Positions 20,566-56,375 of a DNA stretch of 64,000 bases are shown here, piece after piece. Below the pieces are notes generated by a model. It saw nothing but the letters and a program-made list of their open reading frames with translations. It made no database searches and was not told the DNA's origin. The DNA lies in NCBI RefSeq assembly GCF_020177375.1, contig NZ_JAIWHV010000003.1, forward strand, positions 1-64,000, given 5' to 3'. The stretch is from Saliphagus infecundisoli. Lineage in GTDB: Archaea; Halobacteriota; Halobacteria; Halobacteriales; Natrialbaceae. The translations under genes were made by a program, and so were the position numbers. How positions within the stretch are numbered: position 1 is the stretch's first letter; each line of letters begins with the position of its first letter.

Positions 20566-22551
20566 ATGGCAAATCCTGACAGGTATGATGCGATCGAGTC
20601 CGCGGAGGAGTTCCTCTCCCGGCGGCGGATGTTGGCGGCGACGGCGGCCGCGGTCGGTTCCGGGTTCGCCGGCTGTCTCGGGGGCGACGGTGGGAACGGA
20701 AACGGGAACGGAAACGGAAACGGGAACGGAAACGGAAACGGGAACGACAGCGGAAACGGGAACGACAGCGGGAACGGAAACGGGAATGGAAACGGCAACG
20801 GCAACGATAGTGGCAACGGGAATGGAAACGGGAACGGTGGGTCGGGTGACGATACCACCATCACCACGTTCATGCAGTCGATTCCCAGTGAGATGAACTT
20901 CAACACGTGGGCGCCCAGCTATCCCTGGACGCCCACGTGGCTTCTCTTGGAACCGGTTATCCGATACTACGCCGATGGTTCCGTCAGCCTCGAGATGATC
21001 GAGGACTGGGACTACGATGGCGACAGCCAAGAAGTGACGGTTCACTTCAACGATGAGTTTACGTGGTGGAACGGCGACCAGGTAAACGCTGCCGACAAGT
21101 ACTGGTACGAGGAGACTGCTCGTCTCCTCAATCCCGAGTCGAGCGACATCGCACAGCTCACACTCGAAAACGACGGCCAGACGCTCGTTCGCGAGTACAA
21201 GAACCAGCAGAATCCGCAACTGCTCGAGTATGCGCTCGGCGGCTACCTCGGTGAGATGATGCGGACCCACCGAGACAGCTTCCGGCCGTGGGCCGAGGAA
21301 CTCCAAGATGCCTCGAGTGGCGAAGAACGCACGGGGATCCAGGAGCGCATGGCAGAGGAAATGCCGCTCAACATCCAGACCGTCATGGAGGACGGCCTCG
21401 GCAACGGTCCGTTCCGAATCGTCGACTACAATGAACAGGGGATCTACTGCGAACTCCACGACGGTCATCCCTACTCCGACCAGATCAACATCGACCGGCT
21501 CGACTATGAGCTTGCGGCCGACGAGGCCGTTGCCCAGAACATCATGGGCGGCGAGTACGACTTCGGCTATTCGACGCTGGCGAACTGGCTTGGCGACAGC
21601 ACTCCGGATAACGCCGAGACGATAGCCGAGTACCAGGACACGTTCATGCGGAAGCTCGAGTTCCAGATGCAGGGGCCTGGATCGAAACACACCCGGAACC
21701 TGAACTTCCGGCGCGCGGTCATCCACGCCCTCAGCCTCGAGAACATCTCCGGGAACGAATCGAGCGAAACTACGCCCCGGACGTTACAGACCGGTATTAC
21801 CGAAAATGTCACCAACGAGTGGCTCGGCGATTACGTGAGCGACTTTATCGAGTATCCCGTCCAAGCCGACGAGAGTGGCGCGGCGGAACTGCTTCAGGAG
21901 GAGGGCTATGAACAGGATGGGGACGCCTGGCTCGGGCCCGATGGGGAGCAGGTTTCCCTGGAGTTCGTGATCCCCCAGCGGGAGTCGAACCCTGCTCGGA
22001 CGATCACCGACCAACTTTCGCAGTTTGGGTTCGAAGTGAACCTGAGTTCTCTCGAGGGTGCCGCATACAATGATCGGACCGAGGACAGCATCGACTTTGA
22101 CCTGTCAATCTTTAGTCACGGATCGCTGGCCGCACACCCGTCTTCGTTCTTCCGGCCGACCCATAAGGCCGGCAACGATCTGGGCGAACAAGCTGTCATC
22201 GTGGACGCGATTGAGAACGGCGAGGAACGGTCGCCGTACAACGGGAAGGAGCTCGTCGTCGAGATTCCAGAAGAGGTCGGCCAGGAAGATCTTTCGGGAT
22301 CTACCCAAGAGATTAATCTCTACGATCACTACCAAGAGTGGAGTACTGCCCAATCCGATGAAGAGAACCTGCAGTTCGCCGAGACGTTCAGTTGGCTCTG
22401 GAACTTCTATCTTCCCGGGATCGACATGTACGAGCAAATCAACGGCTCGTGGGGAAAGACCGACGAGTGGGAGTTCGAGGTCAACCAGGATTGGGAGGCC
22501 TACCGGGGCGCCTACCGTGCCGTAAAGCGCGGGCTCATCTCGCCCCAGTAG
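20566..22551 (+). CDS. ABC transporter substrate-binding lipoprotein, family 5 (cluster 2)
   Basis: Binding protein of 661 aa. A Tat motif (SRRRMLAATAA, from residue 18) leads to a lipobox FAGC with Cys37. A roughly 50-residue Asn-Gly linker interrupted by three Asn-Asp-Ser sites follows, then an SBP_bac_5 domain. Codon use differs from the neighbours: many A/T-ending codons (for example GATCTTTCGGGATCTACC), whereas the permease and ATPase genes are almost exclusively G/C-ending. This suggests a different history for this gene. An ATG at 20561 is out of frame; 20566 is the start. It is the last gene of cluster 2 and lies 119 nt after the small membrane protein gene. Confidence 0.93.
   Translation: MANPDRYDAIESAEEFLSRRRMLAATAAAVGSGFAGCLGGDGGNGNGNGNGNGNGNGNGNDSGNGNDSGNGNGNGNGNGNDSGNGNGNGNGGSGDDTTITTFMQSIPSEMNFNTWAPSYPWTPTWLLLEPVIRYYADGSVSLEMIEDWDYDGDSQEVTVHFNDEFTWWNGDQVNAADKYWYEETARLLNPESSDIAQLTLENDGQTLVREYKNQQNPQLLEYALGGYLGEMMRTHRDSFRPWAEELQDASSGEERTGIQERMAEEMPLNIQTVMEDGLGNGPFRIVDYNEQGIYCELHDGHPYSDQINIDRLDYELAADEAVAQNIMGGEYDFGYSTLANWLGDSTPDNAETIAEYQDTFMRKLEFQMQGPGSKHTRNLNFRRAVIHALSLENISGNESSETTPRTLQTGITENVTNEWLGDYVSDFIEYPVQADESGAAELLQEEGYEQDGDAWLGPDGEQVSLEFVIPQRESNPARTITDQLSQFGFEVNLSSLEGAAYNDRTEDSIDFDLSIFSHGSLAAHPSSFFRPTHKAGNDLGEQAVIVDAIENGEERSPYNGKELVVEIPEEVGQEDLSGSTQEINLYDHYQEWSTAQSDEENLQFAETFSWLWNFYLPGIDMYEQINGSWGKTDEWEFEVNQDWEAYRGAYRAVKRGLISPQ
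20692..20842 (+). repeat. Asn-Gly/Asn-Asp-Ser minisatellite in binding-protein linker (cluster 2)
   Basis: About 150 bp of tandem GGAAACGGGAAC-type units, with GACAGC or GATAGT interruptions, encode alternating Gly-Asn with three embedded NDS sequons. It is the longest of the three Asn-Gly tracts here. The repetition at DNA level makes copy-number change by slippage likely. Confidence 0.8.
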
Positions 22552-22629
22552 CCAGCGGTTCCGGGTCGAAGTCCCGCCGTCTTCCCCCTCGGGAAAACGG
22601 TTAAGCCGGTCGGTTCCCTCGCCGATACC

Positions 22630-24351
22630 ATGACCGAACCGCCCGTACTGCCGAGGCCGCGCCACGTTCGGAAGGGGTCGGGAACCGTCCGGCTCGAGCC
22701 GCCGTTCCGTATCTCCTCGAGCGGTGACGACGTCGATCCGGTCGCATCGCTTCTCGGGGACCTCCTCGAGCGGGAGACGACCGAACCCGCGCGCCGGGTC
22801 GAAGCGGGGACTGAGGGCGCCGACGTCCGACTGGAGATCACCGGGGAGCCAAGCGAGCGGGGCGACGATCCGGAGGGGTACGTCCTCCGTGCGGACCCCG
22901 ACGCCGTCGAGATCCGGGCGGCGACGGCGGACGGAGTCCGCCACGGCTGCCGGTCGCTCGTGACGGCGCTCGCCCGGGACGGGGAGGAGTGGACGTTTCC
23001 GGTGTGTACGATCCACGACCGGCCGGAGACCGACTGGCGGGGGCTCATGCTCGATCCCGCACGCGGGTTCCTGTCGGTCGAACGGGTGAAGCTGCGGATC
23101 GACCAGGCCGCCAGGGCGAAGCTGAACCGGCTCCACCTCCACCTGCTCGACGACGAGGGGTACGCCCTCGAGTCCGCGGCCTACCCGGAGCTGAACCGGG
23201 ATCTCGACGGAACCGAGCGGCCGGCGTACTCGCGGGACGACCTCGCGGAACTGGTCGCGTACGCGGGTCGGCGCGGGATCGAGATCGTGCCCGAGATCGA
23301 CGTCCCCGCCCACGCAGCGCACGTCCTCGAGCGGTTTCCGGAACTGGGGTGTACGGTCGAGGGCGGCGCCCCCTCCGACCGGACGATCTGTATCGGAAGC
23401 GAGGAGAGCCGCGAGTTCGTCGAGACCCTCCTGGGGGAGGTGGTCGAGGCGTTTCCCTTCGGGGTCGTCCACATCGGGGGAGACGAGTGGGAGATGCACG
23501 GCCACTCCTGGGAGGAGTGTGTCGACTGCCGGGAGCGGATGGCCGCCGAGGGCTCGGAGACGCCGACCGAACACTTCTATGCGTTCGTCCGCCGGCTCCA
23601 CAGCTTTCTAGAGGAACACGATCGCCGGACGATGCTCTGGAACGACCAGATCGACGTCTCGGAGTCGCCCGACCTCCCGCGGGACGTCCTGATCCAGTTC
23701 TGGCGCGTCGCCGCCCCCGACCGCGGGCCCGTCGAGGGCTGTAGCATGGAGCGGTTCGTCGAGGAAGGGTTCGAGGTGGTCAACTCCTACGTCCACGCGG
23801 CCTACGTCAGGGGGTGGATCGGGGAGGAGTACATGCTCGGCTGGGCGCCCCGGCGCCGGCCGACCGCCCCCGAGGGACGCGAATCCCGCGTCGCCGGGGG
23901 CGAACTCGCCGCCTGGGAACCCTCGAGCGAGGAGCGCCGGGAGTACTTCGAGCGGGCGCTCCCGTCGGCGATCCCCCTGTTCGCCGACCGGCTCTGGAAC
24001 CCCGATCCCGTCGAGAGCGGGTCCGCGATTTCCCGGGCCGTGACCCGTCACGCACTGGGCCCGTTCGTCCCCGACGGGCTCGATGTCTACCGGGATCTCG
24101 GCGGGCTGATCCTCCCGACGAACTGGAAGCGCTCGGACCCAGACCCGCCGGCCCACCCGGATCGGTCGCTGCCGGAACTGTCACCCACTGAAGCCCGATC
24201 GGCCTACGAAGAAACGATCGGGGCGCTGACCGCCCTATGTGAGTCGGGGCGTGCGATCTATCCGGAGACCGCATCGGCCTACGTCGATTCCCTCGAGTGG
24301 CTGATCGAAGTCGCCGAGCGCGACGGCCGGGGCGTGCTCGACCGGCCCTGA
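22630..24351 (+). CDS. GH20 beta-N-acetylhexosaminidase
   Basis: A 573-aa glycoside hydrolase of family 20, with the N-terminal GH20b-like alpha/beta domain (about residues 10-130) followed by the TIM barrel. The barrel opens with DWRGLMLDPARGFLSVERVK, includes LNRLHLHLLDDEGYALE, and has the catalytic pair Asp285-Glu286 in VVHIGGDEWEMHGH; the substrate-assisted mechanism needs exactly this DE pair. Trp and Tyr residues near the end (FADRLWNPD) also fit. It has no signal peptide, so it acts in the cytoplasm on imported HexNAc-containing oligosaccharides. A TATA-like GGTTAAGCC about 30 nt upstream suggests its own promoter. Confidence 0.93.
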   Translation: MTEPPVLPRPRHVRKGSGTVRLEPPFRISSSGDDVDPVASLLGDLLERETTEPARRVEAGTEGADVRLEITGEPSERGDDPEGYVLRADPDAVEIRAATADGVRHGCRSLVTALARDGEEWTFPVCTIHDRPETDWRGLMLDPARGFLSVERVKLRIDQAARAKLNRLHLHLLDDEGYALESAAYPELNRDLDGTERPAYSRDDLAELVAYAGRRGIEIVPEIDVPAHAAHVLERFPELGCTVEGGAPSDRTICIGSEESREFVETLLGEVVEAFPFGVVHIGGDEWEMHGHSWEECVDCRERMAAEGSETPTEHFYAFVRRLHSFLEEHDRRTMLWNDQIDVSESPDLPRDVLIQFWRVAAPDRGPVEGCSMERFVEEGFEVVNSYVHAAYVRGWIGEEYMLGWAPRRRPTAPEGRESRVAGGELAAWEPSSEERREYFERALPSAIPLFADRLWNPDPVESGSAISRAVTRHALGPFVPDGLDVYRDLGGLILPTNWKRSDPDPPAHPDRSLPELSPTEARSAYEETIGALTALCESGRAIYPETASAYVDSLEWLIEVAERDGRGVLDRP

Positions 24352-24668
24352 TACTGCTGGCTGTAACTACGTCAAGGGGCTCGCCAATACGGGGTGGCGA
24401 GAACCCTGAAGGACATATAGTCGGTCGTATGAGAACCTCCCCCAGCATCCCAGTCCTCGCTTCGATCCCGAACCAGTCGGCTCTCGCGGTGGACCGAACC
24501 GGCAGCCGCGACCTCCGATCCGGGGATCGGCGGGACTGGCGGCGGCGTTCGTCGCGGGTACTCTCCCGGTGCCGACCGTGGATCGAACTCGACCGCCACG
24601 CGCTCAGCCCGTGTTGACTGTGGTTATTTCCGAAAGGTATATTGTGGGTGAGATTATCTTGCAGGTAT
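24352..24668. other. 317-bp intergenic region with a hairpin
   Basis: No gene is supported. A perfect 7-bp inverted repeat CTCGCCA...TGGCGAG with an 8-nt loop (24380-24401) follows the hexosaminidase gene and might end its transcript, though it lacks a T-run. Near the right end are an AT-rich element GGTTATTTCCGAAAGG (24622-24637) and GGTATATTG, the likely promoter of the first heparinase-like gene. Confidence 0.4.
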
Positions 24669-27600
24669 ATGACGGGTACCGATCCCGATCGGAACGATAG
24701 CGAACGGGCCGACGAACGAGCGAGAGCGGTCACTGATCGCCGCTTCCGTCCTGGCGTGTCGCGTCGGGCGGTACTGGCGACGGCCGGCATGAGCGCAATC
24801 GGCGGGATGCTCTCTGCCGGAACGGCCGTGGGCGACGACCACAACGCGCTCCACGCGAAGACCCGGCCGACGATCTGGACCGAGAGCGACCGGGAGAACG
24901 CCCGAACGAACGTCGGGCGCTACGACTGGGCCGAAAACAGGCGGGATTCGGCGGTCGCGACGGCGGACCGACGGCTCTCTCGCATCAGCGAGCTGTTCGG
25001 CTCGGACGCGGCGAGCCCGGATTTAGAGAGCCTCTGGCGGTTCGTCACCTCCCAGGAGATCCCCCGCGGGGGCGGGTTCAGCCCACAGCGGGATCTGTTG
25101 GAGTCCGCCGGGGAGAGTTCGGCGGCCGTCGCCGGGCTCTCCGCCGACGACCGGTCCAGAGGGGATCGGGACCCGCCGGCGAACGACTTCGAAGCCTACC
25201 AGCGCTACGGCTCCGACTACTTCCTGATCGACGACGAGCGCCCGGGGACGGGAGAGGACAGGGAGGTCGGCGAAAGCCGTGGATCGGTCGGAATCAACGC
25301 GGAGGACTCGCCGAACACCGACCGGATCTGGAAGGTCGAGACGCCGGTCTCCGACCCCCACGGCGAGGGGAACCTGGTCCTCCCGACGAACGACTTCGAG
25401 GCCTACAGGCAGAGCGGGCTCGACGACCTGGGCATGTTCGATCCCGACCTCGCGGACGACTCGCTGCTGGTCAACGAGGAACACCCCGAGATGGGCGAGG
25501 GCTGGGGCGTAGACGATGGCTACGGCTGGGTCGACGAGGACAACGACCTGGGGATCGCAAACGAGGAGTACCTCCGGTGGAACGTCGTCGCCTACTACAA
25601 CCACTGGTCGATCTGGCACCACAGCAGCGGCATCCCCAGCCTCCTCGCGGGGCTGACCGACGCCTACTTGCTGACGGGCGATCGGACGTATGCCCGTGCG
25701 GGGACCGTCGTCCTCGACCGGATCGCCGACGTCTATCCCGGGATGGACCTCACGGAGTACCCGATGACGCCGCCCGGGGAGTGGACCGACGGCTTCTGGA
25801 ACAGCCACGGCGGGCGGATGACCGGCAAGACCGTCGGCGCGTTCTGGGAGTCGAACGTCATGCGGCCGGTGATCCGGGCGTACGACGCCTTCTTCCCGGC
25901 GATGGAGGGCGACGACGAACTCGTCTCCTTCCTCTACGGCAAGACCCAGGAGTTCCCCGGACTCCCCGAGAAGGACTCGATCGAGAAGATCCGAAAGAAC
26001 ATCGAGGACGGCATCCTCAGAGAGATCCTCCCGGCGATGGAGGCCTCGAACATGAAAAGCGGCGGACTGAGCGCGCTGGTCCAGGCCGCTCGCGTCCTCG
26101 ACGAGCCCGACGGCTACACCCAGGAGGCCATCGAGTGGGTGTTCCAGCCCGGCCGGGAGATCTTCGACGGCGACGTCTGGGACGCCGAACCCGAGAACTG
26201 GTATACGACCGGCGGGAACGTCCTCGCGCCGATGGTCGACGTCTGGGACCGGGACGGCTACAACAACAGGGCGGGACCGGGCTACAACACCATCCAGATA
26301 AGCGGCACCCGGCAGGTCGCCGACTACCTCCAGGGGTACGACGGGTTCGACGGCGCCGACCTCTACGGCCACCCGAAGCTGCTCCAGTCGCTCGACGTGA
26401 ACGTCCCGTTGCTCCTCATCGATCGATTCACCCCACAGATCGGCGACCAGCACGGCCCCTACACCTCCGAGTGGATCCCGACGAGCATCCGGGAGGGCTA
26501 CCGGGAGACGGGCGAGTCCCTGTTCGCCCAGGTGTGGCACTTCGACGAGGGGTACACGACCGACGGCATCCAGGGCTCGATCTTCGACGCCGATCCGGAG
26601 GGCCTCGGCGACGAGATCGACTCGATCATCGAGGCCGAGGGACCGCTCGACCTCCCGAGTCGAAACCTTCCCGGCTACGGGTTCGCCGCGCTGAAAGACG
26701 GCGAGAACCACGACGTCGGTACGCCCGAGTGGGAGTACGACACCTCCGAACTGTTCGTCAAGGCCTCGACGGAGGTAGACGACAGCTTCCCCGAGGCCAT
26801 ACAGCTCCAGGCCTACGGGGAACGCGAGTGGTGGACCTTCGAGTTCGACGTCGAGGAGGCGGGGAGCTACGATCTCGACCTGGAGGCGCTGTTCGTGGGC
26901 ACCTACGGCATCTACGAGATGAGCGTCAACGGCGACTCCGTCGATACGATCGACTTCATGGCCGACGGCAGCGGCCGGGAGGTCCTGACGTACACCCTCG
27001 AACTTCCCGAGGGAACCAACGAACTGCGCTTCGACTGCGTGGGCAAGAACGACGACTCGGACAACTACCTGATGGCGCTCTACTCGCTGACGGTCACCGA
27101 GGAGCAAGAGGACGTCGGTGATCTGGGCAACGAGAAGCGGGCGTTCTGGATGTACTACGGCCGGACCGGATCCGAGGCCGGCGGCAACGACCACAACCAC
27201 GCCGACGCGTTGAACGTCGGGGTCGCGGCCCACGACCTCGAACTCTCGCCTGACCTCGGCTATCCGGAGGCGACCGGAAGCTGGCCCAAACGCCGGAACT
27301 GGACCGAGAACACGATCAGTCACAACACCGTCACGGTGGACGTCTCCCAGCAGGACGCCCAGTGGGTCGGAACGCCCCGACACTTCGAGGGTGACGACGA
27401 GCGGGTGAACCTGATCGACGTCGACGCCCGCCACGCCTACGAGCAGTGTGAGACCTACCGGCGGACGATGGCGACGATCGAAGTGGACGAACGCCACTCC
27501 TACGCGGTCGACTTCTTCCGGGTCGCCGGCGGCGACGACCACGTCTTCAGCTTCCACGGACAGGTCGGGGAGGCGACCGCTGAGGGCGTCGATCTCACGC

Positions 27601-28622
27601 CCCAGGACGGCGGCACCTACGCCGGCGAGGACGTCCCGAAACCGGGGTACGGCGAGGATTCGGACTACAATCAGGCGGTCGGCAGCGGCTTCAACTACCT
27701 CACGAACGTCGCTCGCGACGACGACCCCGCCGAGGCGGTGACGGTCGACTGGGACGTCGAGGACTACTGGGACCACCGCTCCGACGACGCCGAGGGCGTC
27801 CACATGCGTCTGACGACCTTCGGGGAGTTCGACGAGGTCGCGCTGGCCGACGGCCATCCGCCGGATCGGGACGGCAATCCCGACAGCCTGCGGTACGCCC
27901 TCCTACGCCGACAGGGAAGCGACCTCGAGAGCGACTTCGTCTCCGCGATCGAACACTACGACGGTGACCGGGTCGTCGAATCGGTCGAGCGCGTCCCGGT
28001 CACCGGCGGCGACGGGAACGCCATCAAGGTCGAACTTGCGAACGGTCGCACCGACTACGTGGTCTGCTCGTTCGAGGGAGATACGATGTTGACCGTGGAC
28101 GACGAGTTCCAGTTCCGGGGCTTCTTCGGCGTCTACTCGCTCGAGGACGACGAGTCGGAGTACGCCTACGTCCACGACGGCAGGCGTATCCGGCCGATGA
28201 ACGGCGCGCCGATCGTCCAGGCGAACGCGCCCGCGATCCGGGGCACCGTCGAGGACTTCACTCGGGGAATGGCCCTCGAAAACGAGTTGGAGATACGGAT
28301 CGCCGGGGACCGTCGCCACGTCGATCGCCACACTGGCTTCGTCTACGTCGACACCGACGACTCGAACCCTTGGCAGGGCCAGCCCGATCCGAAGGACCCG
28401 ATCACCGGAAACGGACAGCGTGGGCGTGGAAACGGGGTGTATCCGATCGAGGACGTCGAGGTCGGACGGGGGAACCGCGCGACCATCGACGTCGGTCGCC
28501 GGACGTTCGTCCGCCAGTTCACCGATCCCATGGAACTCGAAGAGGGCGGCTACGAGTACATGGTCTCCGAGGACGACGACGTCCGGATCCCGCTGACCGC
28601 GGTGTGGAAGCGGGATCGATAG
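24669..28622 (+). CDS. Secreted heparinase II/III-like polysaccharide lyase with inserted CBM-like domain (paralog 1)
   Basis: A 1317-aa Tat-exported protein (VSRRAVLATAGMSAIGG, about residues 32-48; no lipobox). The N-terminal half is a helical toroid-like region opening with RPTIWTESDRENA. A CBM-like beta-sandwich (about 700-812) carries WWTFEFDVEEAGSYDL and MADGSGREVLTY. It is followed by the heparinase II/III beta-sandwich with H842-N-H844-A-D846 and the TISHNTV block (His885), positions where this fold keeps catalytic and metal-binding His. Expected role: beta-elimination of uronate-containing polysaccharide outside the cell. Residues about 175-215 weakly repeat the NDFEAYRQSGLDD segment that follows. 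The ATG at 24669 leaves a short acidic leader before the RR motif. Confidence 0.85.
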   Translation: MTGTDPDRNDSERADERARAVTDRRFRPGVSRRAVLATAGMSAIGGMLSAGTAVGDDHNALHAKTRPTIWTESDRENARTNVGRYDWAENRRDSAVATADRRLSRISELFGSDAASPDLESLWRFVTSQEIPRGGGFSPQRDLLESAGESSAAVAGLSADDRSRGDRDPPANDFEAYQRYGSDYFLIDDERPGTGEDREVGESRGSVGINAEDSPNTDRIWKVETPVSDPHGEGNLVLPTNDFEAYRQSGLDDLGMFDPDLADDSLLVNEEHPEMGEGWGVDDGYGWVDEDNDLGIANEEYLRWNVVAYYNHWSIWHHSSGIPSLLAGLTDAYLLTGDRTYARAGTVVLDRIADVYPGMDLTEYPMTPPGEWTDGFWNSHGGRMTGKTVGAFWESNVMRPVIRAYDAFFPAMEGDDELVSFLYGKTQEFPGLPEKDSIEKIRKNIEDGILREILPAMEASNMKSGGLSALVQAARVLDEPDGYTQEAIEWVFQPGREIFDGDVWDAEPENWYTTGGNVLAPMVDVWDRDGYNNRAGPGYNTIQISGTRQVADYLQGYDGFDGADLYGHPKLLQSLDVNVPLLLIDRFTPQIGDQHGPYTSEWIPTSIREGYRETGESLFAQVWHFDEGYTTDGIQGSIFDADPEGLGDEIDSIIEAEGPLDLPSRNLPGYGFAALKDGENHDVGTPEWEYDTSELFVKASTEVDDSFPEAIQLQAYGEREWWTFEFDVEEAGSYDLDLEALFVGTYGIYEMSVNGDSVDTIDFMADGSGREVLTYTLELPEGTNELRFDCVGKNDDSDNYLMALYSLTVTEEQEDVGDLGNEKRAFWMYYGRTGSEAGGNDHNHADALNVGVAAHDLELSPDLGYPEATGSWPKRRNWTENTISHNTVTVDVSQQDAQWVGTPRHFEGDDERVNLIDVDARHAYEQCETYRRTMATIEVDERHSYAVDFFRVAGGDDHVFSFHGQVGEATAEGVDLTPQDGGTYAGEDVPKPGYGEDSDYNQAVGSGFNYLTNVARDDDPAEAVTVDWDVEDYWDHRSDDAEGVHMRLTTFGEFDEVALADGHPPDRDGNPDSLRYALLRRQGSDLESDFVSAIEHYDGDRVVESVERVPVTGGDGNAIKVELANGRTDYVVCSFEGDTMLTVDDEFQFRGFFGVYSLEDDESEYAYVHDGRRIRPMNGAPIVQANAPAIRGTVEDFTRGMALENELEIRIAGDRRHVDRHTGFVYVDTDDSNPWQGQPDPKDPITGNGQRGRGNGVYPIEDVEVGRGNRATIDVGRRTFVRQFTDPMELEEGGYEYMVSEDDDVRIPLTAVWKRDR

Positions 28623-28792: not shown

Positions 28793-28804
28793 GTGTGGTT
28801 ACTG

Positions 28805-36580: not shown

Positions 36581-36706
36581 GGCAACATCTAACTCTCCCT
36601 GACTCTCATTAAATCTATTGGTTATTTCCGTAAAGAACGTCGTCGGCAGCCGCACCTCCCGGCCGCTGGAGAAACTTTAACCCGAACGGCTCCGTCGCTC
36701 GACGGT

Positions 36707-37801: not shown

Positions 37802-37804
37802 TCC

Positions 37805-40393: not shown

Positions 40394-40418
40394 GCAGGGT
40401 CGGCCGCGGACCGACCGC

Positions 40419-43788: not shown

Positions 43789-43894
43789 GATGTCCGGTGG
43801 CAATCGTCACCCGCGGGTCATAAGTCTATCTTCGGGGAGGAGACACGAGGAGCGCGGGGAGAACGCTTTAGGCGACGGTCCGAGAGCATCCCGT

Positions 43895-45055: not shown

Positions 45056-45059
45056 GTGT

Positions 45060-46637: not shown

Positions 46638-46702
46638 ACCTCGAGTGCGAACGGGAAGATAGTAAGAATGGGGGTCCCGGCGGGCGGGCGACGGACGGGG
46701 GG

Positions 46703-47638: not shown

Positions 47639-47769
47639 CTCTGAGCCAACGGTTCGCAAGGGGGAATCATTATCGTTCCGGTTCGGGCGGTCCTCGCGGG
47701 AGGCCGCCGAACCCATCAGCGATCCGTAGAGTCGGGAGCTATAAGCCGCTCGCGGCCCAGAGCGGTCGT

Positions 47770-48255
47770 ATGTACGTGTTCGCCGTCGGTAGTGACACTG
47801 CTGTCGGCGGGCCAATCCCCATCGAGTGGCTCGAGGGGCTGGCCCGCGGGACCGACCACGAGGTGTGGGCGACCGGCGACCAGTCGCTCGCCCGGGAGAC
47901 GGGGATTCCCGGCGACGACGAGGCCCTCGCTCGCTACCGGGAGCGGTGGGGCGATCCCACGGACCACGCCGAGGACTGGCTCGTCGGCGAGGAGTGGGCC
48001 GATCGCCCGCCGACCGCCCCCGATCCGGACGTCGTGACCGCCCTCGCGGCCTACGAGCGGGAGGGCCATCCCCTCGCGGGCCACCAGCACCTGCGGCTCC
48101 TGTCGGCGCTGTTTCCCGACGCCGACCACGTCGCCGTCCGCGACCGCGACGTCGACTATCTCGAGGGCTGGCGCTCGTACTACCCCTGGGAGTTCAGGGC
48201 CGCCATCGAGGACGGACTGGTCGACATCGAACACCCCCTGGAGGCGCCGCGATGA
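47770..48255 (+). CDS. Uncharacterised 161-aa acidic protein, translationally coupled to the propeller gene
   Basis: I do not recognise this protein. It is soluble and acidic, and begins MYVFAVGSDTAVGGPIPIEWL with ATGDQSLARETGIPGDDEAL after it, a pattern loosely like the start of a small alpha/beta (HAD- or Rossmann-like) domain. It continues with HQHLRLLSALFPDADHVAVRDRDVDYLEGWRSYYPWEFR. The stop overlaps the next ATG (ATGA), so it is expressed with the beta-propeller protein. TATA-like CTATAAG about 35 nt upstream supports the start. The tight coupling to a putative polysaccharide enzyme is the only functional hint. Confidence 0.7.
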   Translation: MYVFAVGSDTAVGGPIPIEWLEGLARGTDHEVWATGDQSLARETGIPGDDEALARYRERWGDPTDHAEDWLVGEEWADRPPTAPDPDVVTALAAYEREGHPLAGHQHLRLLSALFPDADHVAVRDRDVDYLEGWRSYYPWEFRAAIEDGLVDIEHPLEAPR

Positions 48256-50063
48256 CCGGCGAACCGGACCGCTCGCGGGGACTGCTCGGCCACTGGGAGG
48301 AGGTCTCTCCCGGCGGGATCGTCCGGGACCGATCGCCGGAGGGAAACGACGGCAACTACGGGATCGACGCGCGCTGGATCTGGTTTACGAACCCGCGGGC
48401 GACCTTCCACGCGGGCGAGCGCGAGGCGACCTATCTCGCGTACCTCGGCGGCCCCACCGGCCGGGACGTCGTGGTCGGGGCCTACGATCACGACCGGGAG
48501 AGCCTCGAGTCGACCGTCGTCGAACGCGACTTTTCTCCCGACGACCACACGAACCCCTCGCTCGCGCTCCGGGCCGACGGCCGCCTGCTCGTGTTCTGGG
48601 GCGGGCACAACGGCGAGTCGATCCGCTACACCGTCTCGTGTGAGCCCGAGAGCGTGGCGGGGTTCGGCCCGCCCCGCCGGCTCGAGGGCGAGAGCGTCAC
48701 CTACCCGAACCCGATCCGGTCGCCCGACGGCGACTCCCTCCTGCTGTTCTATCGGGACCGGATCTACACCCGCGACGCGACCGACGACGAGTACGGCTAC
48801 ATGGGCGACGGCAACTGTTATCTCCGCCGGTCGGACGACGAGGGCGCGACCTGGGGCGACCCCACGCTCCTGGCGGTCCCGCCGGAAGGCCACTACTCGC
48901 TGTACGCTCTCCCCGCCCGCGGCCCCGGGGCGATCCACCTCTTTTTCACCGACGCCGAGCGCGGCGGCGACGCCCCCAAGTGGAACGTCATGTACGCGAA
49001 GCTCTGCGACGGCCGGCTCTACGCGGCCGACGACACCCTGCTGGGCGATCCCGAGGAAGCGCCACTCGAGAAGGAGGATCTCGAGACCGTCTACGACTCG
49101 CATGCGCCCGGGAACCACCACGCCTGGCTCTGGGACTGCGCGGTCGACTCCGAGGGGAGGCCGGTCGTCGCCTACGCGACGTTCCCCTCGACGCTCGCCC
49201 ACGAGTACCGCTACGCCCGCTGGACGGGCGAGGAGTGGGCCGACCACCCCATCGCGGACGCGGGCCCCTACATCGCGCGGCGACCGATCGAACTCCACTA
49301 CTCGGGCGGGCTCTCGATCGATCGTTCGAATCCGAGCGTCGTCTACGGCTGCGTGGCCCGCGGGCGGAACCGATCGGAGGGAAGCGTCCTCACCCGGTTC
49401 GAGACCGATACTGGGGGGAGAACCTGGTCCTCGACGACCGTCGGCCGGGACCGGCCCGGCTGGGACCTCCGGCCCGTGGTCCCGCGAAACGCGAGCGAAG
49501 AGCTCCCGGTGCTCTGGCTCGCCGGCTCGTACGACCACATGGACACCTCCCAGACCGTCCTCCGGGGGCTGCCGACCGACCGTCACGGTGGCCCGCTCGC
49601 GGGCGACGGCCGCCGCGGCGTCGACCTGGGGCTCGCTCCCTACGGTCCGCGGACCTTCGCCGACGGGCTCACCGTCGCCGCCTCGATCCGCCTCGAGGAC
49701 CTCGACTCGCCGGGCACGGTCGCGAATCTGGGGAGCGCTACCCTCGAGGTCGGCGACGGGAGGATCGAGTTCGGGCTCGAGGGTCCCGACGGGAAGAGAG
49801 CGGTTCCCTGGGACGTCGCGAGCGAGGGCGAGCGGTACCACGTCGCCGGCACCTGGAACGGCGACCGGCTCGCGCTCGCCGTCGACGGCGAGTACGTCGC
49901 CGAGACCGCTTTCGGGGGACCGATCGGCGGCGGGGAGCGGGAAAGCTGGACGCTGCTGAAAGGCGAGTACCTGTTCGATCGGGGGTTCGAGGGGCGGGTC
50001 TCGGACGTCAGGCTCTACCGGCGGGCGCTGTCGGCGGGGGAGATCCGGGCACTGGCGGGCTGA
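48252..50063 (+). CDS. BNR_4-type beta-propeller protein with LamG-like C-terminal domain, possible polysaccharide lyase
   Basis: A 603-aa protein without signal peptide. Residues about 30-420 form a BNR_4-type propeller with DDHTNPSLALRADG (His99), FWGGHN (His119), YPNPIRSPDGDSLLLFYR, SDDEGATW and GNHHAWLWD. The C-terminal part (about 440-603), with TVAASIRLEDLDSPG and GRVSDVRLYRRALSAGEIRAL, is a concanavalin-like LamG_3 domain. Propeller-type ulvan lyases (PL24/PL25) share this BNR_4 fold and keep two functional His about 20 residues apart near the start; the same spacing is seen here, but activity is an inference. It starts in an ATGA overlap with the 161-aa gene. Confidence 0.78.
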   Translation: MTGEPDRSRGLLGHWEEVSPGGIVRDRSPEGNDGNYGIDARWIWFTNPRATFHAGEREATYLAYLGGPTGRDVVVGAYDHDRESLESTVVERDFSPDDHTNPSLALRADGRLLVFWGGHNGESIRYTVSCEPESVAGFGPPRRLEGESVTYPNPIRSPDGDSLLLFYRDRIYTRDATDDEYGYMGDGNCYLRRSDDEGATWGDPTLLAVPPEGHYSLYALPARGPGAIHLFFTDAERGGDAPKWNVMYAKLCDGRLYAADDTLLGDPEEAPLEKEDLETVYDSHAPGNHHAWLWDCAVDSEGRPVVAYATFPSTLAHEYRYARWTGEEWADHPIADAGPYIARRPIELHYSGGLSIDRSNPSVVYGCVARGRNRSEGSVLTRFETDTGGRTWSSTTVGRDRPGWDLRPVVPRNASEELPVLWLAGSYDHMDTSQTVLRGLPTDRHGGPLAGDGRRGVDLGLAPYGPRTFADGLTVAASIRLEDLDSPGTVANLGSATLEVGDGRIEFGLEGPDGKRAVPWDVASEGERYHVAGTWNGDRLALAVDGEYVAETAFGGPIGGGERESWTLLKGEYLFDRGFEGRVSDVRLYRRALSAGEIRALAG

Positions 50064-50126
50064 TTCTCCCGGAGGGGAGCGGCGTGGGATCGAAGCGTAC
50101 AAGGGGGAAAGCGAGTTGGGGGAGGT

Positions 50127-51098
50127 ATGGAGATCGGATTCATCGGAGCCGGCAAGATGGCCGGCACCCTCATGGAGAAGGTAGACGGCTACGACGGCGC
50201 GCGGGTCACGGCCGTCTGTGACGTAGACGAGGACGCGGCCCGCGAGGCAGCCGAGCCCCGCGAGGCCGCGGCGTACGCCGACCACACGGACCTCTACGAG
50301 GGGGCCGACCTCGACGCCGTCGTCGTCGCGATCCCGCCATTTGCCTACGACGACCAGGTGACGAGGGCGGCCGAACGCGGGATCGACGTCTTCGTCGAGA
50401 AGCCCGTGGCTCTCCGGGTCGAACAGGGAGAAGAAACCCTCGACGCGATCGAGGAGGCCGGAATCGTCAGCGGGACGGGCTACGTCTTCCGGTACGACGG
50501 GATCACCGAGCGCGCCCGCGAACTGCTCGAAGACCGCGAGATATCGCTGCTCGCGGGCCGGTACTGGAGCGGCCTGCTCGCGAGCTCGTGGGGGAACGAA
50601 CTCGAGCTCTCGGGCGGGGAAATCGTCACCCGAACCACCCACATCTACGACATGGCCCGATACCTCGCCGGCGACGTGGACCGCGTCTCGGCGGCGAGCA
50701 CCGACCGGATCGGGACCGAGGAGATCGACTACCCCGATGCGACGACCGCGACCCTGGAACACGAAAACGGCGTCGTCACCACGGTCTCCTCGGGGGTCAC
50801 CTCGCCGACGTGGACGGCCGAACTCGACGTCCTCGGCGACGATCTCCACCTCCATCTCGACTACCCCTCCCAGACGCTCACCGGCCAGGTCGGCCCCGAG
50901 GCGATCGACTACCACGCGCCGACCGACCGCTACGGCCGCGAGATCGAGACGTTCCTCGAGGCCGTCGAGCGGGGCGACCCCGACCACGTCCGGTCGGACT
51001 ACGCCGACGCCCTCCGGACGCTGTCGGTGAACTGGACCGTCATCGACGCCGCCGCGGACGGCGAGCCCGCGGCCGTCGGCGAGACCCGCCGCTCCTGA
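50127..51098 (+). CDS. Gfo/Idh/MocA-family dehydrogenase (second of three)
   Basis: A 323-aa dehydrogenase with the Rossmann motif GFIGAGKMAG, the AIPPFAYDDQVTRAAERGIDV segment, EKP (FVEKPVALRV), and HxxD-type HIYDMARYLAGDV in the substrate domain. It probably oxidises a sugar or sugar acid derived from the imported glycan. It lies 63 nt after the propeller gene on the same strand. A GGGGAGGT sequence touches the ATG, too close to act as a normal ribosome-binding site, so the message may be leaderless or coupled. Confidence 0.88.
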   Translation: MEIGFIGAGKMAGTLMEKVDGYDGARVTAVCDVDEDAAREAAEPREAAAYADHTDLYEGADLDAVVVAIPPFAYDDQVTRAAERGIDVFVEKPVALRVEQGEETLDAIEEAGIVSGTGYVFRYDGITERARELLEDREISLLAGRYWSGLLASSWGNELELSGGEIVTRTTHIYDMARYLAGDVDRVSAASTDRIGTEEIDYPDATTATLEHENGVVTTVSSGVTSPTWTAELDVLGDDLHLHLDYPSQTLTGQVGPEAIDYHAPTDRYGREIETFLEAVERGDPDHVRSDYADALRTLSVNWTVIDAAADGEPAAVGETRRS

Positions 51099-51567
51099 CC
51101 GGGCCTCAATACCGTCCCGTCCGGACGACAATCACGAACGATCGCCAACGACCGACCCGTTCGTTTTACTCCTCCAAACGGATCCCGTGAGGTGTTCACG
51201 ACGACCGGGCGGGACCTGCCCCGATCGATTACAACCGTACGGTTGTCATTGTATCGTGGTCCCTCTCGAAGAAATCCGTCGAGCGGTCGGCACGCCCGGC
51301 GAGATCACCCGTTCGGGCCGGACGGTCGGTGTTTTCCCTTCCAAAACGATTCGTCCCTCTCGATCGGCGGATCGGTTCGAGACGGGTCGAACTATCGATC
51401 GGTCGTCGGACGCGCCGACGCGAATACCCGAGACGTTTCACGACGTCAAACGAAATCTCGACCGGTCGCCGGGGGATCCATCACAACTTACATTACGGCG
51501 GGGTCCGTCGATTCGGACGAACGGCTATGCAGGAGTGTCCCACGGTCCAGTCCGAGGTGGGTTCGGC
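51099..51567. other. 469-bp intergenic region with palindrome copy 3
   Basis: I see no supported gene. The region contains the 20-bp palindrome (51229-51248), followed by GTATCGTGGTC (51251-51261) and an inverted repeat CTCGA...TCGAG (51265-51283). A ribosome-binding-site-like GAGGTGGG (51554-51561) lies before the GTG of the flavin monooxygenase gene. A leader of some 300 nt would be unusual beside the mostly leaderless genes here. Confidence 0.45.
51229..51248. promoter_or_regulatory. 20-bp palindrome, copy 3 (candidate operator)
   Basis: TTACAACCGTACGGTTGTCA contains the perfect 16-bp palindrome ACAACCGTACGGTTGT. It is the best-conserved of the three copies and shares downstream sequence with copy 2. 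Confidence 0.55.
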
Positions 51568-52551
51568 GTGAAGTTCGGCGTCTTCTTGAACCAGTACTAC
51601 ACGCCCGAGAGCGGGTTCGAGGTCACCGACCTCTACGAACAGGTCGAACTGATGGAGCGGGTCGGGTTCGACGGCGCCGCCGTCGGCGAGCGCCACGTCC
51701 ACGAGGAGGGGTTCGCGGAGGCGATCACCACCCTCTCGGCGATCGCCGCCCGGACCGAGCGCCTCGAGCTTGCGACGATGGCGCTGCTGCCAATGTGCTA
51801 CGATCCGATCCGTCTCGCCGAGCAGGTCGCGATGATCGACCGCCTCTCGGACGGTCGGATGCACTTTGGCGCCGCGATCGGCTACCGCGAGCGCGAGCTC
51901 GAGGCCTTCGGCGTCGACCTCGAGGGCCGCTCGAAGACGTTCATCGAGTCGCTCTCCCTGCTCAAACGGCTCTGGAGCGAGGAGTCGGTGAGCCACGACG
52001 GCCCCGAGTGGACCGTCGAGGACGTCTTCGTCTCGCCCCGTCCCGAGGAGATGCCCGTCTGGATCGGCGGCCACGCCGATGTCGCGATCAAGCGGGCGGC
52101 CTACCGCGGCGACGGCTGGATCGCCAGCGCCTCCTCGACGACCGAGGACCTGAAACACCAGATCGGGGTCTACGAGGACGCCCTGGACGAGTTCGGCGAG
52201 AATCGGGATGATCACGAGGTCGTCCTGATGCGCGACTGCTTCGTCGCCGACTCCGTCGCCGACGCCCGCGAGACGATCGAGCCCTATCTGCTGCGGATGT
52301 ACGAGTGGTACGCCCGCTGGGGCCAGACCTACATGGACGAACACGAGGTTGAGGTCGATTACGACGACCTCGAGGAGAAGTTCGTTATCGGCTCGCCCGA
52401 CGAGTGCGTCGACCAGCTCCGGGTCTACGAGGACCTCGGCGTCGACCAGGTCTACCTCCGGTGTCAGTTCCCCGGCCAGCCACAGGACGTCACCCTCGAG
52501 ACGGTAGAGCGGTTCGGCCGCGAGGTCATGCCCGCCATGGAGGCGCGATGA
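51568..52551 (+). CDS. LLM-class flavin-dependent oxidoreductase (luciferase-like)
   Basis: A 327-aa bacterial luciferase-like monooxygenase, TIM-barrel fold, expected to use reduced FMN or F420. Landmarks: KFGVFLNQYYTPESG at the N-terminus, GFDGAAVGERHVHEEGF, ALLPMCYDPIRLAEQVAMIDRLSDGRMHFGAAIGY, VFVSPRPEEMPVWIGGHA and VIGSPDECVDQL. The start is GTG at 51568, supported by GAGGTG 9 nt upstream; a longer frame to 51187 is open but unrelated to the family. It overlaps the following dehydrogenase gene by ATGA, so the two form an operon. The substrate is unknown. Confidence 0.88.
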   Translation: MKFGVFLNQYYTPESGFEVTDLYEQVELMERVGFDGAAVGERHVHEEGFAEAITTLSAIAARTERLELATMALLPMCYDPIRLAEQVAMIDRLSDGRMHFGAAIGYRERELEAFGVDLEGRSKTFIESLSLLKRLWSEESVSHDGPEWTVEDVFVSPRPEEMPVWIGGHADVAIKRAAYRGDGWIASASSTTEDLKHQIGVYEDALDEFGENRDDHEVVLMRDCFVADSVADARETIEPYLLRMYEWYARWGQTYMDEHEVEVDYDDLEEKFVIGSPDECVDQLRVYEDLGVDQVYLRCQFPGQPQDVTLETVERFGREVMPAMEAR

Positions 52552-53618
52552 GCTCCGTGAAGGCGCCGACCGTCGGCTACGTCGGCCTCGACCACCACCA
52601 CGCCGAACCCTACCTCCAGACGCTTTCGACGCTGCCGGCGACGGTCGTCGCGGCCTGCGAGCCAAACCCCGCGTTCGACGCCGACGGCGTCGATGCCCTC
52701 GACGACGTCCCCGTCTACGGCGACGTGGAGACGTTGCTGGCGCGGGAGTCCCCCGACGTCGTCTTCCTCACGCTCCCGAACCGCGACACCCCCGACGCGA
52801 TCCGCCGGGCCGTCGCCGCCGGCTGTGACGTCTTCACCGAGAAGCCCGCCGCGCGCACTGCGGGGGAACTCGAGGCTCTCAGGGACGACCTCCCGGCGTC
52901 CGCGACGGTCTGTGTCTCCTACCCCTGGCAATCGCACCCCATCGCCCGCGAACTCCGCGATCGGGTCGATGATGGCTTCTTCGGGGAGATGCGCGCGTTC
53001 GACGCGCGTTTCATCGCCTCGAAGCTCGACTACCGGGACGCCGACCACTTCATCTTCGACCCCGACGCGAGCCGCGGGGGGATCCTCCAGTGGCTCGGCA
53101 TCCACTGGCTTCAGTTGTTCACCCGGCTGCTCGAGGCCCCGATCCGGCGGGTCAACGCCGCTACGACCGCCGGCACCGACGGCGTCGCCGTCGAGGACGG
53201 CGTCTCCCTCCAGCTCGAAACCGCCACCGGCGGCCTGGGCACCCTCCAGGCGGGCTACTACCTCGCGGAGGGCGTCTACGACACCCGCTTCGACCTCTAC
53301 GGCGAGGACGGCGCCAGCCGCTGGGACCCGATGGGCCGGGAGTTCGGCTTCACCGGCGAGACGAGCCTCGAGCTCGAGGACTCCGGCGGCCGATGGGGTG
53401 CGACGCCCCACCGGACGATCACCCACGACTACGAGCCCGCACCGGGCTACGGCGGCTCGTGGGGCCGCGAGTTCGTCGAGGCGTTTTTCGACTCCCGGGC
53501 CGGCGGCGAGCCGCCCGTGACCGTCGGCGACGCCCTCGACGTGCTCAGGATCACGGACGCGGCCTACGATTCCGCCCGGACCGGGGAGTGGGTCGAGGTG
53601 GCCGGTACCGACCACTGA
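52548..53618 (+). CDS. Gfo/Idh/MocA-family dehydrogenase-like protein (third of three)
   Basis: A 356-aa protein of the Gfo/Idh/MocA fold. The dinucleotide loop is degenerate (VGYVGLDHHHAEPYL instead of GxGxxG), but TLPNRDTPDAIRRAVAAGCDV, the EKP motif (FTEKPAA) and the C-terminal sheet domain are clear; GIHWLQLFTRLLEAP stands where HxxD usually lies. Loss of the Gly loop may mean a weaker or different cofactor mode. It starts in an ATGA overlap with the flavin monooxygenase gene and is presumably translated with it. Confidence 0.85.
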   Translation: MSSVKAPTVGYVGLDHHHAEPYLQTLSTLPATVVAACEPNPAFDADGVDALDDVPVYGDVETLLARESPDVVFLTLPNRDTPDAIRRAVAAGCDVFTEKPAARTAGELEALRDDLPASATVCVSYPWQSHPIARELRDRVDDGFFGEMRAFDARFIASKLDYRDADHFIFDPDASRGGILQWLGIHWLQLFTRLLEAPIRRVNAATTAGTDGVAVEDGVSLQLETATGGLGTLQAGYYLAEGVYDTRFDLYGEDGASRWDPMGREFGFTGETSLELEDSGGRWGATPHRTITHDYEPAPGYGGSWGREFVEAFFDSRAGGEPPVTVGDALDVLRITDAAYDSARTGEWVEVAGTDH

Positions 53619-53723
53619 TACGGTCGGAGGAAAGTCATTGCACCCCCGATCGCGACCCGTTGGGGCGATCGACCGGTACACCGTTTCTTCCGGCCGTATG
53701 ACCCTCGACCCGACCTCGCCGGA

Positions 53724-54902
53724 TCAGATCGTTTCGGTTTGCCAGAAGTAGTACTCGAGGGGGAGCACCGAGCGGAGGATCGGGCGGGAGCGTTTGATCG
53801 ACCAACAGGCGTCGGACGAGCCAAAGAGGAGGCGGGTCATCGTTCGCCGGTCGAGGACCACGTCCGGCGACCGGGACGTCCGCTCGACGGCGAGGACGTC
53901 GCCGGTCGTCCTAATCGCCACCGCCTCCCGGGACGCCTCGACCGATTCGCCCGCTTCGGTCCCGTCGAGTGCGAGCGTCACCGAGTCGGACCGATCTCCA
54001 CCGAGGGCCTGGGCCATCGACCGCCAGCGATCGGCCAGCAGCGGCTCGTACGCCTCGAGGGTTCCCGTGAGATCGAGGACGTTCAGCTTGCGGTGTGGCT
54101 GTGTTCGCCAGTCGGCGGCGACCTCCCGGAACAGCGCGGTCAGCGGGTGATGGGGGTGGGTAAAGAGTGCGAGTTCCCCGGAGTCGGCCGACTCAAGGAC
54201 GGTCGCGAGCAGCGCCACGAGGCCCTCCCGAGAGCCGCCGAACTCGAGGATGGCCGTCGGATCGCTCCCGCGATGGGCGAGGTACGCCGGTCGGTCGCCC
54301 TCGAAGACCAGCGTCTCGAGGTCGCGCTGGTCGAACAGCCGCTCGTACCGGCGCCGATCCCGGGAGACGCGATACCGTTCGCGCTCGTGGATCGGCTCGA
54401 TCGCGTCGAGGTCCTCGGGGCCGCGGTACTGACGGACGCGATCGGTCCCGCCGGGCTCTCGCCCGAACGATCGCTCGGTGATCAGGTACCGCCGCTCCCG
54501 GCCGGCGTTTTCCCACCCGAACCGGCCGTAGCCGACTCGGTCACCCTCGAGTTCGGCCAGGGGAACGGTCCGCTCGTCGAGGCGCTCGAGCCAGAACTCG
54601 ATCAGCCGGGTCATGTACCCCTCGCCGCGATGGTCGGGATCCGTTGCGACCCCCGCGACGCCGCCACACTCGATCCGGGCGCTGCCGGCCCGGAGCTCCG
54701 CCGGGACGCAGGCGACGTGGCTCACGACCGCCCCATCGCGTTTGACGATTGCGTGTCTCTCGGGTTTCGACTCGTCGAAGCAGTGGGGCATTCGCCTCTT
54801 GAGTCCACCGGATTCGAACCCGAAACAGCGTTCGGCCAGCGTCATTGCCTCCCGGAACTCCTCGGGCCGAACGAGCCGTGGCCCGTCGATGGCTGCGGTC
54901 AC
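53724..54902 (-). CDS. Eis-like GNAT acetyltransferase (paralog 2)
   Basis: A 392-aa paralog of the protein at 40419: GGVAGVATDPDHRGEGYMTRLIEFW as the acetyl-CoA loop, EFGGSREGLVALLATVLES in the middle, and an SCP2-like C-terminus ending LPLEYYFWQTETI. The GTG at 54902 (TAAIDGPRLVRPEEF) is chosen by alignment with the first paralog; in-frame upstream ATGs would add a basic stretch with no counterpart. It is divergent from a secreted beta-helix gene, repeating the acetyltransferase/beta-helix pairing seen at 40.4-43.8 kb. Confidence 0.83.
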   Translation of the reverse strand: MTAAIDGPRLVRPEEFREAMTLAERCFGFESGGLKRRMPHCFDESKPERHAIVKRDGAVVSHVACVPAELRAGSARIECGGVAGVATDPDHRGEGYMTRLIEFWLERLDERTVPLAELEGDRVGYGRFGWENAGRERRYLITERSFGREPGGTDRVRQYRGPEDLDAIEPIHERERYRVSRDRRRYERLFDQRDLETLVFEGDRPAYLAHRGSDPTAILEFGGSREGLVALLATVLESADSGELALFTHPHHPLTALFREVAADWRTQPHRKLNVLDLTGTLEAYEPLLADRWRSMAQALGGDRSDSVTLALDGTEAGESVEASREAVAIRTTGDVLAVERTSRSPDVVLDRRTMTRLLFGSSDACWSIKRSRPILRSVLPLEYYFWQTETI

Positions 54903-55052
54903 GTCGGTCGGTAGACGGCCCGAATACAACACGATTTCGATGGTGCACTCGAGCCCTTTCGAGTGATTGACCCGGTACAACCGGAGAACGAAGTGGCAGT
55001 CGATCATCAACGGAGTTTATGTGTTACCACGAGCCATTACCGCCGTGGTTGC

Positions 55053-56375
55053 ATGAATAGACGCACCTACCTGTCGTCGATCGGTATCGCCAGCGGCGTC
55101 CTCGCGAGTAGCCCGGGACCCATCGGAGCACGTTCGTCGCCGGGGGAATCGAGGAACAACCGTACGGGACGACACCGGATCCGGACCGCCGACGACCTCG
55201 TGGAGCTCTCGACCGACGACCTGCTCGAGCTCGACAACGAAACGGTCCGGAGACCGTTCCATCCGGGGATCGGCGGCGGCCGCCACTACGATCCGGACCG
55301 GTTCGACGGCCCCGAGGAGTACCCCCACGGGGGTTCGGTCTCCCGATCCGACGCCGACTACGTGGTCGCGAACGGCGACGAACTCGGGACGGCGGCCGAC
55401 GAGGCGTCCATGGGAGAGGTCGTCTGGATCGACGGCGACGCCGAGATCGATATGACCGGGCTCTCGATCACGCTCGCCGGCGGCGTGACCCTCGCCTCGG
55501 ATCGTGGACGCGGCAACTCCCAAGGGGGAGTGCTCCACCAGGACGAAAACGGGTTCAACGCGTTCGTCACCACCGGCGGCGACGACGTCCGAATCACCGG
55601 GGTCAGGTTCTCCGGACCGGAACACGAGTACTGGAACTACGAGGACAAGGGGATCGACAGCATCTACGACGTCGGGATCACCTACGGGCTCCTGATAGAC
55701 GACACCGACGACGTCGAAGTGGACAACTGCCGGTTCTCCGGGTTCACCTACACCGGAATCCGGGTCGGGATGTGGGGCGACTACGAGTGTGAGGGGATCT
55801 ACGTCCATCACACCGAGTTCGTCGACAACCCCTCGCCGGCACTCGGCTACGGGATCGAGATCTACGGCGGAGACCCCGTCATCGAGTACAACTACTTCGA
55901 CAACAACCGCCGGTCCATCGCGGGCGTCGGCGGCGATTTCCCGGTGAACTACACGGTCCGAAACAATCTCTTCGGGCCGCGGACGCGACTGGCACCGATC
56001 GACGCCCACGGCGGCGCCGTCGACGACATGGACCAACCGCAAGCGGGGGTTCGGCTGACTATCGACAACAACGTCGTCCTCTCGGAGGAAGGCGCCGTCT
56101 CCGGAAACGCACAGCCCGCCGTCGTCATCCGGGGCGTGCCACGGGAGCGCGCGTACATCCGCAACAATTGGTTTTTCACCGACCGGGCTCCGCCGTTCAG
56201 CACAGGGGAGGGCACCGGCGACGGTGGCGGAGCGATTCGCCAGTGGACCGACGAGTACACCGCGATCACGGCGTACAACAACATCGTCGGCAAGTTCGTC
56301 CTGACCGACCGGCTCGGGGTCCCGAACACGGCCTGGGACTCACGACGAGGACGCGGGAAGCGATCGAACGACTGA
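55053..56375 (+). CDS. Secreted right-handed parallel beta-helix protein (pectate-lyase-like)
   Basis: A 440-aa protein with an N-terminal Tat motif (NRRTYLSSIGIASGVLASS). The mature domain begins with SRSDADYVVANGDELGTAAD and EVVWIDGDAEIDMTGLSI, the usual entry of pectate-lyase-type helices. Repeats rich in Asn ladders follow (VEYNYFDNNR, VRNNLFGPRT, IDNNVVLSEE, YIRNNWFF). The repeats are of the polysaccharide-lyase/Pel_C-like type, but a catalytic Arg/Lys set cannot be named with confidence. TATA-like GTTTATGTG about 35 nt before the ATG indicates a leaderless mRNA. Confidence 0.8.
   Translation: MNRRTYLSSIGIASGVLASSPGPIGARSSPGESRNNRTGRHRIRTADDLVELSTDDLLELDNETVRRPFHPGIGGGRHYDPDRFDGPEEYPHGGSVSRSDADYVVANGDELGTAADEASMGEVVWIDGDAEIDMTGLSITLAGGVTLASDRGRGNSQGGVLHQDENGFNAFVTTGGDDVRITGVRFSGPEHEYWNYEDKGIDSIYDVGITYGLLIDDTDDVEVDNCRFSGFTYTGIRVGMWGDYECEGIYVHHTEFVDNPSPALGYGIEIYGGDPVIEYNYFDNNRRSIAGVGGDFPVNYTVRNNLFGPRTRLAPIDAHGGAVDDMDQPQAGVRLTIDNNVVLSEEGAVSGNAQPAVVIRGVPRERAYIRNNWFFTDRAPPFSTGEGTGDGGGAIRQWTDEYTAITAYNNIVGKFVLTDRLGVPNTAWDSRRGRGKRSND

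Follow-up and report, generated by a model that had tools for sequence, protein, structure and literature searches.

Gene content of the locus

We analysed a 64,000-nucleotide stretch of Saliphagus infecundisoli DNA (the window) that carries two secreted lyases of the heparinase superfamily together with genes for hexosaminidases, a sulfatase and dipeptide-type ABC importers, and that is part of a larger locus occupying about 0–95 kb of contig C33. The original prediction had described positions 20566–56375 as a degradation system for an acidic gamma-glutamyl/N-acetylhexosamine (HexNAc)/uronate glycoconjugate, possibly a wall polymer of other haloarchaea. Coding frames were picked by codon-position GC and domains were called by Pfam scans of the window, which found each of the named enzyme classes at the coordinates given below.

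The predicted degradative gene set was present. A GH20 beta-N-acetylhexosaminidase (22630–24351, plus strand), whose catalytic Asp-Glu pair lies in a GGDEW motif kept in all five aligned sequences, is followed by lyase 1 (24642–28622, plus) and lyase 2 (28793–33055, plus). Both lyases have a Hepar_II_III_C domain; lyase 1 bears a Tat-like SRRAVL motif, and lyase 2 has an internal CBM84-like domain and C-terminal PKD domains. Next come an S1 sulfatase-family protein (33123–34547, plus) with Ser, not Cys, at the formylglycine position (SIPAR), a gamma-glutamyltransferase (GGT; 34280–36655, minus) with a Tat-like leader and the TTH motif of the catalytic Thr, and an M14 zinc carboxypeptidase-like protein lacking a signal peptide (36707–37801, plus). 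The GH3 protein (37805–39436, minus; start set by homology, longest frame to 40165) has a NagZ-type KHFPG loop with the catalytic Asp-His pair (KHFPGHGDTELDSH). The GGT frame extends about 140 codons beyond the point where the conserved protein usually ends, into the convergent sulfatase gene.

Among the enzymes and binding proteins checked, twin-arginine (Tat-like RR) motifs occurred only in the lyases, the GGT and the binding proteins, in agreement with the predicted secretion of lyases and GGT. The GH20, GH3, sulfatase, M14 and BNR_4 proteins are read as cytoplasmic because they begin directly with their catalytic domains. Pfam likewise confirmed three predicted peptide-type importers, all of the dipeptide type: importer 1 (561–7034, plus; SBP_bac_5, two permeases and a fused double ATPase), importer 2 (double ATPase and two permeases at 14155–20072, plus, recurring at sister loci; SBP_bac_5 at 20566–22551, plus, with a Tat/lipobox-like N terminus) and importer 3 (56811–63693, minus). 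Past the window edge, at 64–95 kb of the contig, lie amidases, CapA, a D-aminoacylase, a FAH-family hydrolase with an adjoining DgaE-like ammonia lyase gene, PIG-L, an IclR regulator and a RidA-like protein. The D-aminoacylase, FAH, DgaE-like, CapA, amidase and PIG-L genes, which fall outside the region originally considered, had been overlooked.

Fold and conserved residues of the lyases

An AlphaFold2 (AF2) model of lyase 2 (39 sequences; pLDDT 86, pTM 0.82) displayed the (alpha/alpha) toroid plus antiparallel beta-sheet fold of polysaccharide lyase (PL) family PL40. Its best fold match was the PL40 ulvan lyase Uly1040 (PDB 9vtk; Z = 36.2, rmsd 3.9, 700 residues, 17% identity), followed by PL17 (Z about 35) and then by PL39, heparinases, PL15 and PL33. 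Residues 552–678 matched the xanthan-binding module MiXBM (Z = 17.6, rmsd 1.8), forming the CBM84-like insert. Tyr264, Asp342, His712 and His714 were invariant in 39 of 39 lyase sequences, and His177 was kept in 38. These are the same kinds of catalytic residue as in PL40, where Tyr is the acid and Asp, together with another His, activates the His base (PMC12915356); the equivalence was drawn from sequence pattern and fold, not from superposed coordinates.

The lyase here thus shares both its fold (Z 36 and 35) and the His/Tyr/Asp/His residue set with the PL40 enzyme and the PL17/PL39 alginate lyases, but differs from them in its low identity, its internal CBM84-like domain, its archaeal origin and a gene context of amino-sugar rather than rhamnose genes. 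Similarity at the level of the PL40 family was not found, since a single-sequence search gave no match and a profile search only a partial one (E = 1e-7). Set apart by comparison of modelled fold and sequence, not against CAZy, the proteins probably form a uronate lyase family of their own, for which, it seems, no member has been characterised.

The haloarchaeal lyases group in a single clade (support 0.997), within which the two window lyases fall in different subclades, each common to other genera, and are therefore old paralogues. The same family is expanded in Paenibacillus, with many paralogues in P. contaminans, and occurs in Cohnella, Actinopolymorpha and gut Clostridia, in each case outside the archaeal gene context (stretches L066–L132). 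The Paenibacillus neighbourhoods were dropped as a clue to the substrate, having little in common beyond the lyase.

Conservation across haloarchaeal genomes

Searching a plasmid collection with lyase 1 (tblastn) identified nine haloarchaeal megaplasmids, and a contig search of genomes added named relatives. Seven Natrialbaceae genomes were sampled deeply: S. infecundisoli itself, Natrononativus amylolyticus, Halomontanus rarus, Natronococcus sp. CG52, Natrinema zhouii, G237 and Natrialba taiwanensis; absence at a sister locus denotes absence from the stretch read. Gene order was reshuffled among these loci, but the gene set was shared. The lyase, GH20, GNAT, DgaE-like pyridoxal phosphate (PLP) enzyme, FAH and sugar phosphate isomerase/epimerase-like genes were found at all seven, as was a sulfatase-family gene, from two different families. 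PIG-L was present at six, GH3 and the D-aminoacylase at five each, and CapA and the dihydrodipicolinate synthase (DHDPS) family at four each. The dipeptide-type importer also recurs among sister loci.

Across the order, the lyase was present in 11 of 293 genomes, counting one marginal case. With shared ancestry ignored throughout, GH20 orthologues (at least 60% identity) were confined to four of the 293 genomes, all lyase-bearing (hypergeometric p = 7e-7); BNR_4 orthologues to five, all among 10 lyase genomes (hypergeometric p = 1.4e-8); the DgaE-like gene occurred in 77, comprising 10/10 lyase genomes versus 67/283 others (p = 1e-6); and GGT in general, found in 92, showed no clear enrichment with the lyase (p = 0.06). 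The BNR_4 gene of G237 lies about 280 kb away from the lyase. Together, these genes form one system, and the region is a real, conserved glycan-utilisation locus.

The gamma-glutamyl bond had been proposed as one of the targets. Locus-type GGT (at least 60%) was found only beside lyases, namely twice in the S. infecundisoli genome and in Natrononativus, Natronococcus CG52 and YIM A00010. However, it occurs at 3/7 loci, as does M14, and because of this and the wide spread of its relatives, GGT was rejected as a core component and appears to be, at most, a specialised but optional accessory; the gamma-glutamyl bond was not upheld as a core target.

The second copy of the locus in the S. infecundisoli genome (contig C4:36461–76460) has 81–96% protein identity and a similarly long GGT frame. 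It represents a real duplication or a second strain, the assembly having a contamination estimate of 4.5%. In Halomontanus, the locus includes a gene for an alpha/beta hydrolase that carries a glucuronyl-esterase domain (L034:19945–22371), and other loci encode AXE1-like esterases annotated as prolyl oligopeptidase.

Amino-sugar branch and other genes

The gene annotated as a class V aminotransferase is better described as DgaE-like (TIGR01437, E = 2e-61; PDB 7lc0, E = 3e-44). Aligned to AfDam and BbDam, the D-aminoacylase keeps the counterparts of the acetamido and alpha-carboxylate contacts Lys254, Tyr285, Ser291, Asp368 and Arg379. The D-aminoacylase–FAH–DgaE trio was also seen in G040 and G057 (L135, L137) with no lyase nearby, next to an amidase, a ceramidase-like protein, Gfo/Idh/MocA pairs and CapA.

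Sugar-acid dehydratases had been predicted and are present as a pair of MR_MLE proteins, but at 9625–12265 (minus), outside the coordinates originally given; the member at 10853–12265 scores above the D-galactonate dehydratase cut-off (NF010624). The predicted aldolase gene was confirmed as a DHDPS-family aldolase/dehydratase (46703–47815, minus), its nearest curated model being 5-dehydro-4-deoxyglucarate dehydratase, below cut-off. Of two predicted beta-helix proteins, the secreted one at 54963–56375 (plus) was borne out by Pfam, and the secreted protein at 41743–43803 (minus) gave a weak pectate-lyase-like signal (Pect-lyase_RHGA_epim, E = 0.0026). Counterparts of both were not found at sister loci, and both were set aside as core components.

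Several genes within the region originally considered had also been missed: the BNR_4 beta-propeller protein with a LamG domain (48252–50063, plus), a Gfo/Idh/MocA–F420-type LLM oxidoreductase–Gfo/Idh/MocA run (50127–53618, plus) and two GNAT genes, the Acetyltransf_9 member at 40419–41612 (minus), which is the one shared by all deeply sampled loci, and a second at 53724–55010 (minus). An assignment of BNR_4 to PL24/25 was dropped; only its LamG part has a sequence relative in the PDB, and the AF2 model was weak (pLDDT 50). The window further encodes a Gfo/Idh/MocA oxidoreductase (12093–13751, minus; the frame's N-terminal part is probably non-coding), an IclR-type regulator (13257–14030, plus) found again at most sister loci, a short-chain dehydrogenase/reductase (SDR; 39530–40393, plus; start approximate, from the Pfam domain) that recurs at sister loci, a conserved protein with a weak match to DUF4015, a putative glycosyl hydrolase (43901–45049, plus), and an Amidohydro_3 metal hydrolase (45060–46751, minus).

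Discussion

We consider it likely that the genes make up a polysaccharide-utilisation locus whose target is an acidic, probably sulfated glycan of HexNAc and (amino)uronic acid. The presence of uronate and HexNAc in the polymer is well supported by the lyase fold and catalytic residues, GH20, GH3 and the D-glucosaminate-type ammonia lyase, and that of sulfate is fairly supported by the sulfatases. In the proposed pathway, the two lyases, Tat-secreted members of the PL40/PL17 superfamily that have an inserted carbohydrate-binding domain, would cleave the polymer by beta-elimination next to uronate, a reaction suggested by their modelled fold and conserved residues. The dipeptide-type importers, assigned by family, would take up the resulting oligosaccharides. 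Desulfation would follow in the cytoplasm, where GH20 and the NagZ-like GH3, recognised by family and motif, would free terminal HexNAc, presumably in this order. The enzyme classes of the operon suggest that HexNAc might then be oxidised to an aldonic acid by a Gfo/Idh/MocA, SDR or LLM dehydrogenase, that the D-aminoacylase-family or PIG-L protein might remove the acetyl group, and that the DgaE-like ammonia lyase could deaminate the hexosaminate to a 2-keto-3-deoxy acid. The DHDPS-family aldolase, or alternatively the FAH hydrolase, would cleave this product as well as the uronate-derived sugar acid. Where present, GGT, M14, amidases and CapA may trim amide or gamma-glutamyl decorations.

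Several observations weigh against this scheme. The DgaE-like protein, for which DgaE is the best PDB relative, scores 208 bits against a TIGR01437 subfamily cut-off of 385. The D-aminoacylase lacks the Gln298 and metal-ligand Cys of GlcNAc1A deacetylases (residues per PMC12017989), with Leu at 298 in all six sequences, Ser or Thr at the Ser292 position, and Asp in place of Cys97; an identity as OngB, which had looked promising from a PDB hit, was ruled out by these residues. The anaerobic sulfatase-maturating enzyme anSME was not detected in the S. infecundisoli genome, in which the formylglycine-generating enzyme FGE is present, and the activity of the Ser-type window sulfatase is uncertain for this reason. 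A different sulfatase family, seen at the sister loci, is Cys-type (CLPSR), and the second S. infecundisoli locus encodes a 58% relative of it. GH88, the unsaturated uronidase, is absent from the locus, the sole copy lying on contig C75. The roles given to the oxidoreductases are guesses.

Two special cases of this acidic-glycan reading concern the identity of the polymer. It is possible, though we would not favour it, that the substrate is a haloarchaeal surface glycan, such as the Natronococcus poly-gamma-glutamine glycoconjugate, the Halococcus wall heteropolysaccharide, a sulfated S-layer glycan, or a sulfated exopolysaccharide (EPS) of the 2-acetamido-2-deoxyglucuronic acid type found in Haloferax mediterranei. 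Haloarchaeal surface polymers of this kind contain HexNAc, a uronate or an aminouronate, and either sulfate or gamma-Glu (PMC4243693, PMC3191746). The restriction of locus-type GGT to lyase loci and the presence of CapA and amidases point the same way, but GGT and M14 are each missing from four of the seven loci, and species of Natronococcus bear the locus themselves. Natrialba, a genus known for poly-gamma-glutamate, has the locus without locus-type GGT. Moreover, related lyases are plentiful in Paenibacillus and gut Clostridia, where such a polymer is not expected. To a similar degree, an animal- or bacteria-type glycosaminoglycan (GAG) reaching brines (hyaluronan, chondroitin sulfate or heparosan) is a tentative candidate: some haloarchaea are now known to grow on hyaluronan and chondroitin sulfate (PMC13260240), the sulfatase, hexosaminidases and uronate lyases are compatible, and the lyase fold is related to those of heparinase II/III and PL33 lyases. 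However, this fold comes nearest to PL40 and PL17 rather than to GAG lyases. Haloarchaeal GAG loci known so far, which share with this one a plasmid-borne uronate lyase, a sulfatase and an ABC importer, use PL8, GH88 and GH154 (PMC13260240), whereas neither PL8 nor GH88 was found in Pfam scans of the window, and GH20, GH3, DgaE-like and BNR_4 genes are present instead.

The shuffled gene order, the free-standing D-aminoacylase–FAH–DgaE module and the dipeptide-type importers could also reflect several unrelated catabolic clusters (chitin-type amino sugar, peptide uptake and sugar acid) piling up on megaplasmids, but this is improbable given that GH20, BNR_4 and the DgaE-like gene follow the lyase across genomes and that every deeply read locus has a sulfatase gene. 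Remodelling of the cell's own envelope is more doubtful still. It would accord with the occurrence of the locus in wall-bearing Natronococcus and with CapA and genes annotated as S-layer protein nearby; the importers, cytoplasmic exo-hydrolases, catabolic ammonia lyase and aldolase, however, indicate carbon use, and the locus is rare in the order. Of the alternatives raised earlier, peptidoglycan is disfavoured because uronate lyases and a sulfatase do not fit it, and ulvan, as an algal sulfated glycan, because the loci read have no annotated rhamnosidase and an amino sugar is indicated by GH20, GH3 and the DgaE-like enzyme. The original prediction is therefore partly supported: the idea of a locus dedicated to an acidic HexNAc/uronate glycan is sustained, and the wall polymer is one of several that fit, with the evidence not singling it out.

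Related amino-sugar systems offer further comparison. The ong cluster of Pseudoalteromonas (GH20, OngB deacetylase, OngC deaminase, RidA and KdgK; PMC9537276) has GH20, a D-aminoacylase-family deacylase, a PLP deaminase and RidA in common with the locus here, which differs in lacking the OngB specificity residues, in having an ammonia lyase of the DgaE/SelA-related type, and in not being a chitin locus. A D-glucosaminate ammonia lyase (DgaE-type) step has been predicted in chitin-eating Natrarchaeobius (PMC12343721). The chitinase-bearing system shares a DgaE-like enzyme, galactonate dehydratase, IclR and a Rid protein with our locus, but has chitinases where the latter has uronate lyases and a sulfatase.

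A more specific scenario, which we offer as speculative, is that a new PL family with an internal CBM84-like domain drives digestion of other archaea's sulfated (amino)uronate glycans (S-layer, EPS or wall), while the amino sugar is degraded by an unphosphorylated hexosaminate route. It was only in 2026 that haloarchaea were reported to use acidic polysaccharides, by means of PL8 lyases (PMC13260240), and the locus predicts a second enzyme system for such polymers, unrelated to PL8. Its lyases would represent a family without a characterised member that is widespread also in Paenibacillus and gut Clostridia, and the locus suggests a route, open to experiment, by which haloarchaea could break down amino sugars, a process regarded in the literature as unresolved (PMC12343721).

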